Origin: Eubacteriales bacterium
GTDB taxonomy: Bacteria; Bacillota_A; Clostridia; Lachnospirales; Lachnospiraceae
Assembly (NCBI GenBank): GCA_030533315.1
Contig: JAUNJL010000021.1
Coordinates: 1 to 35,639 of the forward strand
Direction: 5' to 3'
Length of the DNA: 35,639 nucleotides
The notes beneath the pieces are model-generated. The model had not been told where the DNA came from. It searched no databases and saw only the letters and a program-made list of their open reading frames with translations. Positions 4,256 to 35,176 of the stretch are shown piece after piece; positions within the stretch are counted from its first letter, which is position 1, and every line of letters begins with the position of its first letter. The position numbers were made by a program, and so were the translations under genes.

Positions 4256-4771
4256 ATGAAAAAAGCTGGACTACTTGTTCTTTTGCTGGGAGCGGTTTTG
4301 TGCTTTCCCGGCTGCGGATTTGAGGATGGGGCGGGAGCTACCGTGACGGTGATCGAAGCGACGCCCACGCCGGAGCCTACGCCTACGCCTGAGGTAACGC
4401 CCACACCGGAGCCCACACCGATCCCGGAGCCAGTGATCGTTCAGACTGCCAGCGGCGTCAACGTGGAAAAGAAGGACGGCGTTTATGTGGCCAATACCGA
4501 CATTAATCTTCGCGCGGACTGCAGCACGGAGGCTGCCCTTGTGGCCAGCGTTGCCAGCGGCACCCAGCTGACCAGTACCGGCGTCTGTGAGAATGGATGG
4601 GTGGAGGTGAGCTACGAGGGCCAGACCCTGTATTGCTCCGGCGATTATGTGACGCGCCAGGAGACGGCTCCGGCAGATCCGGCAGCGGCAGCCCCGGCAG
4701 ACCCGGCGGCCATAACGGACGGCACCCAGGCAGATCCTGCGGCGGCCGTATCGGACGGCACGGGAGCCTGA
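4256..4771 (+). CDS. Secreted SH3-domain lipoprotein
   Basis: 171 residues. MKKAGLLVLLLGAVLCFPGC is a lipoprotein signal peptide with the modified cysteine at residue 20. A Pro/Thr-rich linker follows (about 35-60, repeated TPTPEP), which would span the wall. A bacterial SH3-like domain comes next (about 80-135: DINLRADCSTEAALVASVAS ... GWVEVSYEGQTLYCSGDYV), a fold that commonly binds peptidoglycan or peptides. The tail is a low-complexity Ala/Pro/Asp repeat (PADPAAAAPADPAA). It has its own promoter and terminator and is therefore a single-gene unit. A function beyond envelope attachment cannot be read from the sequence. Confidence 0.8.
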   Translation: MKKAGLLVLLLGAVLCFPGCGFEDGAGATVTVIEATPTPEPTPTPEVTPTPEPTPIPEPVIVQTASGVNVEKKDGVYVANTDINLRADCSTEAALVASVASGTQLTSTGVCENGWVEVSYEGQTLYCSGDYVTRQETAPADPAAAAPADPAAITDGTQADPAAAVSDGTGA

Positions 4772-6162: not shown

Positions 6163-6189
6163 ATGACCGGCACGAAAGGGGTGCCATGA
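6163..6189 (+). other. Micro-ORF 1 in the cyclophilin leader
   Basis: ATG ACC GGC ACG AAA GGG GTG CCA TGA would encode MTGTKGVP. GGCAC (6169-6173) can pair with GTGCC (6181-6185) inside it. A closely similar micro-ORF follows at 6226. No strong ribosome site was seen in front, so translation is unproven. Confidence 0.35.
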
Positions 6190-6225
6190 GGGGAGCAGGC
6201 CTGGGGGCCGGCTTCCAGATTTATC

Positions 6226-6252
6226 ATGACCGGCACTCCGGGCGTGCCTTGA
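6226..6252 (+). other. Micro-ORF 2 in the cyclophilin leader
   Basis: ATG ACC GGC ACT CCG GGC GTG CCT TGA would encode MTGTPGVP. GGCAC (6232-6236) pairs with GTGCC (6244-6248). Its stop codon directly abuts the AAAGGAG ribosome site of the cyclophilin gene. It differs from micro-ORF 1 in four codons, three of them synonymous. Confidence 0.4.
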
Positions 6253-6263
6253 AAGGAGTAAGG

Positions 6264-6980
6264 ATGAAACGTAAGATTTTCACGGTTCTTTTGGCCGCAG
6301 CCCTTTCTGTGGGCATGATGACGGGCTGCGGTGGCAAGAAGGAGGCCTCGGATCAGACGGAGCAAAAGGAGGCGGCCGTCTCCCAGGAGGAGGCGGAGGC
6401 AGCAGGCTTCTCCGATGGCCAGGAGAAAACCGGGGATGCACAGGAGGGCGGCGGCGCAGTCCTGGATACCAGGGAGGAGCTGACGGGGCTGCATCATGCG
6501 GAGATCACCGTTGCGGACTATGGGACCATCCAGGTGGAGCTGGATGCGGACACGGCTCCCATCACGGTGACCAATTTCGTCAAGCTGGCCCAGGGAAGCT
6601 TCTATGACGGGCTGACCTTCCACCGCATCATTGACGGCTTTATGATCCAGGGCGGCGACCCTCTGGGAAACGGGACCGGCGGCTCTGATGAAAACATCAA
6701 GGGTGAGTTCGGCAGCAACGGGGTGGAGAACAAGATCTCCCACACAAGGGGGACCATCTCCATGGCCAGATCTTCGGATCCGGACAGCGCCAGCTCCCAG
6801 TTTTTCATCATGCATGAGGACGGCACCTACCTGGACGGCGAGTATGCGGCCTTTGGCCACGTGACCGAGGGGATGGAGGTGGTGGACGCCATCTGTAAGG
6901 CGGCGGAGCCCACCGATGACAACGGCACCATCCCCAGCGAGGAGCAGCCGGTGATCCAGTCGATTCGGATACTGGACTGA
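6264..6980 (+). CDS. Cyclophilin-type peptidyl-prolyl cis-trans isomerase, lipoprotein
   Basis: 238 residues. The enzyme catalyses proline cis-trans isomerisation, here outside the membrane. The signal peptide ends in the lipobox MTGC with the lipid-carrying cysteine at residue 22. An acidic Glu/Ala-rich linker follows (about 25-75). The cyclophilin domain covers about 78-238, with FHRIIDGFMIQGGDP (119-133, including the catalytic Arg), ARSSDPDSASSQFFI and AAFGHVTEGMEVVD. The start at 6264 has AAAGGAG upstream and yields a proper signal peptide. An in-frame ATG at 6186 would hide the signal behind 26 extra residues and is not preferred. Confidence 0.9.
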   Translation: MKRKIFTVLLAAALSVGMMTGCGGKKEASDQTEQKEAAVSQEEAEAAGFSDGQEKTGDAQEGGGAVLDTREELTGLHHAEITVADYGTIQVELDADTAPITVTNFVKLAQGSFYDGLTFHRIIDGFMIQGGDPLGNGTGGSDENIKGEFGSNGVENKISHTRGTISMARSSDPDSASSQFFIMHEDGTYLDGEYAAFGHVTEGMEVVDAICKAAEPTDDNGTIPSEEQPVIQSIRILD

Positions 6981-16430: not shown

Positions 16431-16469
16431 ATGGACGCGCCAGGCGGGCAAAAAAAGAGGGAGGTCTGA
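16431..16469 (+). other. Micro-ORF in the cbiF-cbiG gap
   Basis: Twelve codons encoding MDAPGGQKKREV and a TGA stop. It has a plausible ribosome site (GGGGGAG four bases before ATG). The end contains a purine-rich AAGAGGGAGG. The peptide recalls MIDAASAPGKR of the tgt leader, but the similarity is short. Confidence 0.35.
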
Positions 16470-16497
16470 AAGCAGGCCTTCAGAGCTGCCATCCTTG

Positions 16498-16524
16498 ATG
16501 GGGAACCCATCAGAAAAGAGGTAA
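16498..16524 (+). other. Micro-ORF and hairpin in the cbiG leader
   Basis: Eight codons encoding MGNPSEKR. The TAA stop lies inside the cbiG ribosome site (GAA AAG AGG TAA), four bases before cbiG. A perfect 7-bp hairpin with a GAA loop (16496-16512) covers the micro-ORF start. The 12 bases GAAAAGAGGTAA are identical to the end of the tgt leader repeats. Confidence 0.4.
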
Positions 16525-33508: not shown

Positions 33509-33729
33509 TGTAAAAGTTTAACAAGGATTCCAGCGATTGGTGTCGAAATTCTAACAGTTCAGATAGGTCTCCCGATCGATTCCAGGTGCGCCTTTTTGTG
33601 ATGGCGGAATGTTTTTCCCTTTTCTGCAAAGGAAAAAATCGTGAATGCTGCGGCTGAATGGCAGCAGGAATGCAGGCTTTCATAAGAAGGGTACCGCGGC
33701 GAAAAGCGGATGAGAAGCCGAAAGGGTGG

Positions 33730-33758
33730 TTGAAAAAAATGGAATTTCGGGATATAAT
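33730..33758 (+). promoter_or_regulatory. Promoter of tgt
   Basis: TTGAAA (33730-33735), 17 bp, TATAAT (33753-33758). Transcription would begin near 33765, so the whole repeat array lies in the tgt leader RNA. Confidence 0.7.
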
Positions 33759-33796
33759 AAGCAAAGTTTTGCAGCGCCCTGGCTGCTTGGTTTTGG

Positions 33797-33838
33797 ATGA
33801 TTATTGTTGACGCGGCGGGCGCGTCGGAAAAGAGGTAA
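33797..33838 (+). other. Leader micro-ORF 1 of tgt
   Basis: Thirteen codons encoding MIIVDAAGASEKR, TAA stop inside GAAAAGAGGTAA. No good ribosome site was seen. It belongs to the repeat array. Confidence 0.3.
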
Positions 33839-33865
33839 GTTTGGAAGAGTGCTTCCAAAACTACC

Positions 33866-33901
33866 ATGATTGACGCAGCTAGTGCGCCAGGAAAGAGGTA
33901 A
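33866..33901 (+). other. Leader micro-ORF 2 of tgt
   Basis: Eleven codons encoding MIDAASAPGKR, TAA stop. It sits between hairpin II copies 1 and 2. Confidence 0.3.
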
Positions 33902-33928
33902 GTTTGGAAGAGTGCTTCCAAAACTACC

Positions 33929-33964
33929 ATGATTGACGCGGCGGGCGCGTCGGAAAAGAGGTAA
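33929..33964 (+). other. Leader micro-ORF 3 of tgt
   Basis: Eleven codons encoding MIDAAGASEKR, TAA stop. Between hairpin II copies 2 and 3. Confidence 0.3.
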
Positions 33965-33991
33965 GTTTGGAAGAGTGCTTCCAAAACTACC

Positions 33992-34027
33992 ATGATTGAC
34001 GCGGCGAGCGCGTCGGAAAAGAGGTAA
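33992..34027 (+). other. Leader micro-ORF 4 of tgt
   Basis: Eleven codons encoding MIDAASASEKR. Its TAA stop (34025-34027) lies directly after AGAGG, the ribosome site of tgt, and only six bases before the tgt ATG, so ribosomes finishing here could restart on tgt. Confidence 0.35.
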
Positions 34028-34033
34028 TGTGGT

Positions 34034-35176
34034 ATGGCAGAGTATAAGCTTTTGAGAACGGAAGGAAGGGCGAAAAGAGGGGAGTTCCATACGGTTCATG
34101 GGACGATTCAGACGCCGGTATTTATGAATGTGGGAACGGTGGGAGCGATCAAGGGAGCGGTCTCGACGATGGATCTAAAGGAGATCGGCACTCAGGTCCA
34201 GCTGTCCAACACCTACCACCTGCACGTGAGGACGGGGGACCGCCTGATCAAAGAGTATGGAGGCCTCCATAAATTTATGGTATGGGATCGCCCCATTTTG
34301 ACAGACTCCGGCGGGTTCCAGGTATTCTCCCTGGCAGGTCTTCGGAAGATCAAGGAGGAAGGCGTTTACTTTCAGTCGCACATAGACGGACACAGGATCT
34401 TCATGGGGCCGGAGGAGAGTATGCAGATCCAGTCAAACCTGGGTTCCACCATTGCCATGGCCTTTGACGAGTGCCCCAGCAGCGTGGCGGACAGAGATTA
34501 CGTGCAGAAATCCGTGGATCGGACCACCCGGTGGCTGTATCGATGTAAGGAGGAGATGGACCGGCTGAACAGCCTGCCGGACACCTTAAACAGGGAACAG
34601 CTTCTCTTTGGCATCAACCAGGGGGCCATCTATGAGGACATCCGTATTTCCCACGCAAAAACCATCAGCCAGCTGGAGCTGGACGGCTATGCCGTAGGAG
34701 GGCTTGCGGTGGGAGAGAGCCATGAGGAAATGTACCGGATCCTGGATGAGGTCGTTCCCTTCCTGCCCCAGGACAAGCCCACCTATCTCATGGGGGTTGG
34801 CACCCCGGCCAACATCTTGGAGGCCGTGGAGAGGGGAGTGGACTTTTTTGACTGCGTGTATCCCAGCCGCAACGGGCGGCACGGCCACGTGTACACCAAC
34901 GAGGGAAAGCGGAACATGTTCAACGCCAAATACGAGCTGGATCACAGGCCCATCCAGGAGGGCTGCCAGTGTCCGGCCTGCCGCCACTACAGCAGGGCGT
35001 ACATCCGCCACCTGCTGAAGGCCAAGGAAATGCTGGGGATGCGCCTTTGCGTGCTTCACAATCTGTACTTCTACAACCATCTCATGGAGGAGATCCGGGA
35101 CGCCCTGGACGCCGGAAAATTCCAGGAATACAAGGCAATGCGGCTGGAGGGCTTTGAGAAGGGACAGATGCAGTAG
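34034..35176 (+). CDS. tgt: Queuine/preQ1 tRNA-ribosyltransferase
   Basis: 380 residues, normal length. It replaces guanine-34 of tRNAs for Asp, Asn, His and Tyr with preQ1 (bacterial type) or queuine. The general acid D91 is in LTDSGGFQVFSL, the nucleophile D273 in DFFDCVYPSRN, and the zinc ligands are C311, C313, C316 and H342. LAVGE (224-228) is the bacterial form of the base-recognition loop, which favours preQ1. ATG 34034 has AGAGG nine bases upstream. Other queuosine genes are absent from the window. The leader carries a remarkable tandem repeat. yajC follows, a common bacterial order. Confidence 0.96.
   Translation: MAEYKLLRTEGRAKRGEFHTVHGTIQTPVFMNVGTVGAIKGAVSTMDLKEIGTQVQLSNTYHLHVRTGDRLIKEYGGLHKFMVWDRPILTDSGGFQVFSLAGLRKIKEEGVYFQSHIDGHRIFMGPEESMQIQSNLGSTIAMAFDECPSSVADRDYVQKSVDRTTRWLYRCKEEMDRLNSLPDTLNREQLLFGINQGAIYEDIRISHAKTISQLELDGYAVGGLAVGESHEEMYRILDEVVPFLPQDKPTYLMGVGTPANILEAVERGVDFFDCVYPSRNGRHGHVYTNEGKRNMFNAKYELDHRPIQEGCQCPACRHYSRAYIRHLLKAKEMLGMRLCVLHNLYFYNHLMEEIRDALDAGKFQEYKAMRLEGFEKGQMQ

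Follow-up and report, generated by a model that had tools for sequence, protein, structure and literature searches.

The 63-bp tandem array before tgt consists of copies of a dispersed, mobile-like element that lies beside start codons

The window (the whole 35,639-nucleotide stretch of DNA that was analysed) carries tgt at 34034..35176 on the forward strand, encoding a queuine tRNA-ribosyltransferase (Pfam TGT, E 8e-157) that is 87–88% identical to named Blautia proteins and 89% identical to its best match among the remaining database proteins. The identical protein was itself outscored by two tgt-like entries of 575 and 512 amino acids (P0001 and P0002), possibly owing to duplication of part of the tgt domain. 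Upstream of the gene, Tandem Repeats Finder detected a 63-bp tandem array at 33807–34027 (score 386; 3.5 copies that match at 90% without indels), and a second repeat search spaced the copies exactly 63 bases apart, confirming the original observation of exact 63-bp units before tgt. A consensus scan revealed a promoter-like site, TTGAAA-17-TATAAT (33730..33758, forward strand, 11 of 12 bases), so transcription would be expected to start close to the first unit. The predicted fold of the leader had an energy of −110.1 kcal/mol (z = −4.8), and none of 200 shuffled sequences was equally low. On the opposite strand, a 144-residue ORF (33559–33993) contains a 21-residue repeat, MVVLEALFQTYLFSDAPAASI, which is a mere reverse reading of the array, because 63 is divisible by 3.

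The units, all on the forward strand, were scored using R1, a covariance model of the unit built from 35 copies. Unit 1 (33763..33838, its end coordinate taken from the 63-base register) has a left hairpin GCAGC/GCTGC, a hairpin R and the ribosome site (SD) GAAAAGAGG. Its R1 match at 33763–33835 was weak (18.6 bits, E 0.008) and, rather than being partial as had been proposed, it is probably a full-length yet diverged copy with a left hairpin of different sequence. Unit 2 (33839..33901; R1 33836–33901, 80.7 bits) comprises hairpin L, CTACC, hairpin R and an SD, and contains the A-U inner pair plus one broken outer pair that had been described for it. Unit 3 lies at 33902..33964 (R1 33902–33961, 51.8 bits) and unit 4 at 33965..34027 (R1 33962–34027, 79 bits). 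The SD of unit 4, again GAAAAGAGG, is the one that would serve tgt at a gap of 9 nt to the ATG, and its predicted accessibility was the highest in the array (0.69 compared with 0.39–0.46 for the others). The expectation of structured units each ending in a ribosome site was thus borne out. Hairpin II is not missing from the last unit, as had been thought, because it opens every unit: the natural unit begins with it and ends with the SD. Four micro-ORFs are present in the leader as described, and the stop codon of the final one lies six bases 5′ of the tgt ATG. No Rfam family reached the gathering score on the units, in agreement with the earlier failure to recognise a preQ1 riboswitch there, or on any other copy of the element searched.

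We analysed the tgt loci of relatives. No 14-mer was common to the array and the best 80 relatives' tgt loci, and R1 at E 0.1 gave no match at tgt in these 80, the sole match among them being weak and elsewhere within its locus (L030). A check against related genomes, as originally suggested, thus shows the tgt array to be local to the source lineage. The unit itself is not. With the array DNA as the query, matches were found in seven of 64 genomes from the genus to which the Blautia wexlerae record (L002) belongs, many of them single copies at scattered places. R1 matched 17 of these 64 genomes, the other 47 giving no match, with at least 81 copies in genome G013, 41 in G050, 26 in G046, 17 in G014, 12 in G042 and nine in G054. 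A family-wide search, in which 13 candidates were scored per genome, gave matches in 22 of 397 genomes, and a class-wide search in three of 391, two of which had already been found in the family search and one of which was borderline (E 9.5e-4). A single copy from genome G191 used as the query led to 35 further places, two of them partial. The nearest neighbour of a copy came from its own genome in 85 of 98 cases compared with 19.3 expected, indicating genome-specific amplification. With one copy or one exact pattern as the query, searches of phages, plasmids and viral contigs gave no match. The array before tgt is four copies of an element dispersed in some gut-bacterial genomes, and no device of tgt.

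Two more copies lie in the window itself. The first (16461..16524, forward strand; R1 41.5 bits, E 1.9e-8) is located 4 nt before the start of cbiG, the product of which has CbiG domains, with an SD–ATG gap of 7 nt; its hairpin R has been rewritten to TTGATGGG/CCCATCAG with the pairing kept. The second (6196..6261, forward strand; R1 28.0 bits, E 3.9e-5), with hairpins partly broken, ends 2 nt short of position 6264, the likely start of a gene for a cyclophilin-type peptidyl-prolyl isomerase (Pro_isomerase). The longest ORF of this gene begins at 6186, immediately upstream of the element, and runs through it (6186–6263); the 6186 start is likely to add a false N-terminal stretch, 6264 being the more probable start. 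In annotation, an in-frame ATG upstream of or within a copy can produce such a false extension. A separate 18-bp tandem repeat at 4361–4432, within an ORF at 4256–4771, encodes a Pro-Thr-Glu-rich stretch.

The element is approximately 63 bp long and consists of hairpin L (GTTTGGAAG-loop-CTTCCAAA), a CUACC (CTACC) linker that is exact in 75 of 108 copies, hairpin R (TGACGC-loop-GCGTCA) and a closing SD, either GAAAGAGG or GAAAGGAG, with AAA after it. Its termini are GTTTGG and GAGGAAA, and its inverted repeats are separate internal hairpins. Across 108 aligned copies, 96.3% of the cells pair and ten of the 17 pairs have changed on both sides, with 120 double-changed cells compared with 26.8 in shuffles and covariation in both hairpins; this alignment was fitted to the structure, a bias that favours covariation. 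The first alignment of 35 copies, made using MAFFT, contained 16 double-changed cells compared with 4.8 (0 of 500 shuffles), and the number of pairs with a double change was not above that in shuffles (4 compared with 2.9; 149 of 500). RNAalifold alone predicted hairpin R and not hairpin L. The conserved hairpins may serve a moving DNA strand as much as an RNA. Some copies in G013 (L163, L165, L172 and L174) have an extra hairpin of ~18 nt (TACTC CGT GAGTA) in the loop of hairpin R.

The position of the element was analysed at 110 of 131 R1 matches, after those of low score, many of which read the palindrome in antisense, had been dropped; these loci are part of the genus matches, among those listed. 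The start codon of an ORF follows closely in 97 copies (94 ATG, two TTG and one GTG), and the distance is 2 nt in 59 and 1 nt in 31, so that 90 of the 97 lie at 1–2 nt. Among the other 13, three precede another unit (at 33836 of the window, L206 and L092), one is at a contig end (L202) and nine have no start codon nearby. The figure of 97 was taken from a separate start-codon rule, because the tandem filter of the micro-ORF and left-hairpin analyses over-counts (it also matches GAATGAA). Since R1 includes the SD, loci were also fetched using the left hairpin alone, a query with neither SD nor ATG, from G014, G046, G054 and G191: all 18 had an ATG 64–68 nt past the hairpin start, opening ORFs of at least 64 amino acids. 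The same pattern read backwards gave no match across eight genomes.

The SD core lies exactly 5 nt from the ATG in 82 of the 97 copies, compared with a broad range of 3–12 nt for native SDs, of which 13% are at 5 nt. This native set held 381 of 930 ORFs, from the tgt loci (L001–L080) and the genus loci from L140 onward, minus those with a spacing of 5 and a hairpin-R-like motif, and GGGG was counted as an SD core for the element only. An A occupies position −3 from the ATG in 91 of the 97 copies. Positions −1 and −2 vary even between near-identical copies in one genome, yet their composition is not that of native genes (A frequency of 0.60 compared with 0.32–0.37), leaving the 3′ boundary uncertain by about 2 nt; judged from this composition, these two bases may be partly the element's own. 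Among 75 left ends examined, 67 have an A at −1 and 68 an A at −2, and 47 have an SD core within 16 nt upstream of GTTTGG, mostly 3–6 nt off. An upstream SD match of at least 5 was present for 52% of 97 units compared with 9% of control positions, a comparison made using the over-counting tandem filter. Readable downstream proteins numbered 82, of which 20 were scanned with NCBIfam; 19 matched, some under the curated cut-off, and no pathway was shared. The best matches were ClpP, TsaB, IolD, WhiA, a histidine kinase, HisB, TrpF, SSB, RecD2, threonylcarbamoyl-AMP synthase, PurD, Maf, PyrH, Dxr, Ddl, AtpD, FolC and others.

Empty sites gave a complementary picture: there the native SD adjoins the ATG, and at filled orthologous sites the element stands between the two. 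Where G042 reads GAGGTGAT-GCACAG-ATG, G014 reads GAGGTGAT-element-ATG, a 6-nt spacer against an element. The same pattern was seen at tsaB with and without the element, which have TTTGGAGG in common (a match read by eye, as the alignment had misplaced it). The loci giving these two empty sites (L087 and L135) carry the element elsewhere. Starts of 14 element-bearing G013 genes were then compared with G012, and ten found best matches of 71–84% identity, the orthology of which is unproven. R1 at E 1 detected the element at none of these ten G012 loci, and GAGG or GGAG preceded the start in eight of the nine whose upstream region was read, the tenth (L298) matching from about residue 19. These empty-site comparisons were made at 70–92% identity, between relatives rather than strains. 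At ssb, two units are present in G013 and one in G012 at the same place, with a flank 92% identical. The element also precedes the threonylcarbamoyl-AMP synthase gene (L154 and L198), a gene that we take to be xdhA-like (L182 and L200) and the L216/L127 gene in two genomes; these cases, with ssb, could represent old insertions, repeated hits or function.

Taken together, the tgt leader is in our judgement probably built of four units of a dispersed, non-autonomous and mobile-like element, which would enter next to start codons and use its own SD to restore translation. We propose that a copy would insert downstream of the native SD and upstream of the start codon, with its SD reading in the direction of the gene and its conserved end landing ~2 nt short of the ATG. 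This would displace the native SD ~65 nt upstream, and the element's own SD would take over at a set distance from the ATG, so that translation of the host gene would survive. Further copies could be added at the same place, because each copy recreates the SD-AAA-NN-ATG context; exact tandem arrays, as at tgt, would arise by such same-site additions, and could grow through repeated insertion or slippage. We infer that copies move, as opposed to being laid down by recombination alone, and that the new SD would be the one in use; the start-codon neighbourhood would be a target and not a product of selection. Campbell-type integration at the SD was rejected, because the left spacer varies while the right spacer is set.

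Folding predictions were made for 46 single-copy leaders. The accessibility of the element's SD was 0.45, and that of the native SD was 0.48 in the presence of the element and 0.52 after its removal; the element's SD was predicted to be more open than the native SD would be at only 16 of the 46 loci. These predictions would fit an insertion that leaves translation almost unaffected. Occlusion of the native SD by hairpin L was considered and had a small predicted effect (0.48 compared with 0.52; lower in 27 of 46).

The same arrangement is found in a second family. Genomes G216, G328 and G172 contain the same left hairpin joined to a different right hairpin, GCAGTATCGCAAGC/GCTTGCGATATGC, with the SD end GGAGGTATAA, before start codons (L304, L311, L325, L333, L344 and L345). 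An SD and a start codon follow 17 of 23 unique sites (the script gave 18, and L342 was discarded as having no real SD); of the remaining six, one precedes a further unit (L320) and two continue, as judged by eye, into sequence resembling a terminator. The SD–ATG distance is mostly about 7 nt compared with 5 nt in the first family, yet the conserved end still lies ~2 nt from the ATG (by eye, range 1–3), which favours a junction rule over selection for SD spacing. In L270 (~1450–1570), a tandem of a CCCCGCAAGGGG hairpin, ATACCT and a second hairpin precedes an SD and an ATG, and is perhaps a third family with the same architecture. A broader reading, which we put forward tentatively and regard as slightly more doubtful than probable, is that these elements form a novel mobile class able to recognise sites of translation initiation, inserting ~2 nt 5′ of start codons, in sense and with their own SD, with at least two families obeying the same rule within one bacterial family. 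If so, carrying its own SD would let the element settle at the most sensitive point of a gene and yet leave that gene expressed. The element sits in the few bases between the ribosome site and the start codon, dozens of times per copy-rich genome; if mobility were confirmed, this would amount to a natural swapping of translation-initiation regions genome-wide, expression in common gut bacteria would gain a source of strain-to-strain variation, and whether the start codon is the target or selection produces the pattern would be directly testable. A search that covered mainly openly accessible literature, including the available text of PMC6429828, found no published description of the repeat.

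We then considered what might move the element. An REP-like or IS200/IS605-derived palindrome moved as single-stranded DNA by a Y1 transposase (TnpA or RAYT) would be a subset of our preferred explanation, concerning the mover. Hairpins at both ends, a single orientation relative to the gene and the absence of a visible target duplication all point that way. So do the bottom-strand flanks of hairpin L, GTAG before it (CTAC after it on the top strand, 79 of 108 copies) and CTT after it (AAG before it on the top strand, 80 of 108), since a GTAG tag and a CT cleavage dinucleotide are described for REP substrates in the available part of PMC8266576. The second family, however, is missing the GTAG tag. 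Y1 transposases were detected in 40 of the 64 genus genomes, but the 30 Y1 loci examined contained no R1 match, and the Y1 proteins compared among copy-bearing genomes (G013, G012, G260, G305, G064 and G050, and not G054 or G046) shared no more than 40% identity. No Y1 match was obtained in copy-bearing G009 or in six of ten further genomes, including the likewise copy-bearing G321, G456, G345 and G402, many assemblies being in many contigs, where a Y1 gene could be missed. No link to a Y1 transposase as the partner was thus found. All nine listed left hairpins in G054 and all 12 in G014 belonged to short elements, with no longer parent, and we recognised neither a target-site duplication nor terminal inverted repeats; the A-rich left ends and the A at −3 are inseparable from the element sequence at the empty sites compared. 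Known REPs, moreover, lie mainly downstream of coding regions according to the accessible text of PMC3733652. On balance, a Y1-type mover seems unlikely, and is still the best placed of the alternatives.

A cis-regulatory RNA regulon, in which one structured leader binds a protein or a small molecule and controls the translation of many genes, would explain the two covarying hairpins directly before the SD, the conserved linker (75 of 108 exact), the fixed distance to the start codon and the four genes that carry the element in two genomes. Against this, the 20 of 82 readable downstream proteins that were scanned have no common theme, 47 of the 64 genus genomes are without a match, all ten G012 loci matched by G013 genes are without the element, and copies mostly resemble others of their own genome. 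Judged from these sequence patterns, a regulon would be rather improbable.

Ordinary slippage, duplicating a plain leader without any mobility, would account for the exact 63-bp register, the high identity of units 2–4 and the different number of ssb units in G013 and G012; it explains arrays alone and not the same unit before dozens of genes in one genome, so that dispersal refutes it as a full account, which we regard as highly improbable, and it is plausible for the growth of arrays. The original reading of the leader as a tgt-specific micro-ORF array (a re-initiation chain, a tRNA-modification sensor or a copy-number switch) had in its favour the four micro-ORFs ending at ribosome sites, but can hardly be maintained: the element precedes many unrelated genes and is found at tgt in none of the 80 relatives' loci, which speaks against both a tgt- or queuosine-specific sensor and the switch, and, with a linker ATG in just 14 of 110 copies and a micro-ORF closed inside the element in nine, the micro-ORF is rejected as a conserved feature, leaving re-initiation as something that could still operate in the tgt array and not as a property of the family.

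Having named a non-autonomous, mobile-like element as the preferred explanation, we compared it with known systems. PATEs and other IS200/IS605-derived miniature elements have hairpins near both ends and insert in an oriented manner next to a short target. Our element resembles them in both respects, and differs in having no linked parent or transposase and in that its apparent target is the start-codon neighbourhood. It differs from a MITE of a DDE insertion sequence in lacking terminal inverted repeats (its ends are GTTTGG and GAGGAAA) and a longer autonomous parent (left hairpins of G054 and G014). With preQ1 riboswitches and other Rfam leaders it shares a structured leader upstream of an SD, but it gave no gathering-score match and its host genes are unrelated; unlike translational regulon leaders, it serves genes with no common pathway among the 20 of 82 scanned. 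The BOX, RUP and SPRITE repeats of Streptococcus pneumoniae are likewise small, interspersed and of predicted structure, and are read as mobile, but in the available text of PMC3049150 they are over-represented between convergent genes, are not fixed at start codons and have no described SD role. REPs and REPINs with their RAYT (TnpA-REP) are similar in being short, palindromic and of high copy number with genome-specific variants, and the GTAG and CT on the bottom strand by hairpin L recall RAYT substrates in the first family only (PMC8266576, available part), a likeness that we take as a lead and not as membership. No cognate RAYT or Y1 gene flanked by our element was found (0 matches in 30 Y1 loci). 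Known bacterial repeats favour gene ends, REPs being placed mainly 3′ of genes in what is accessible of PMC3733652 and BOX-like repeats similarly in PMC3049150, whereas the present element lies beside start codons (97 of 110), in sense and with an SD of its own.
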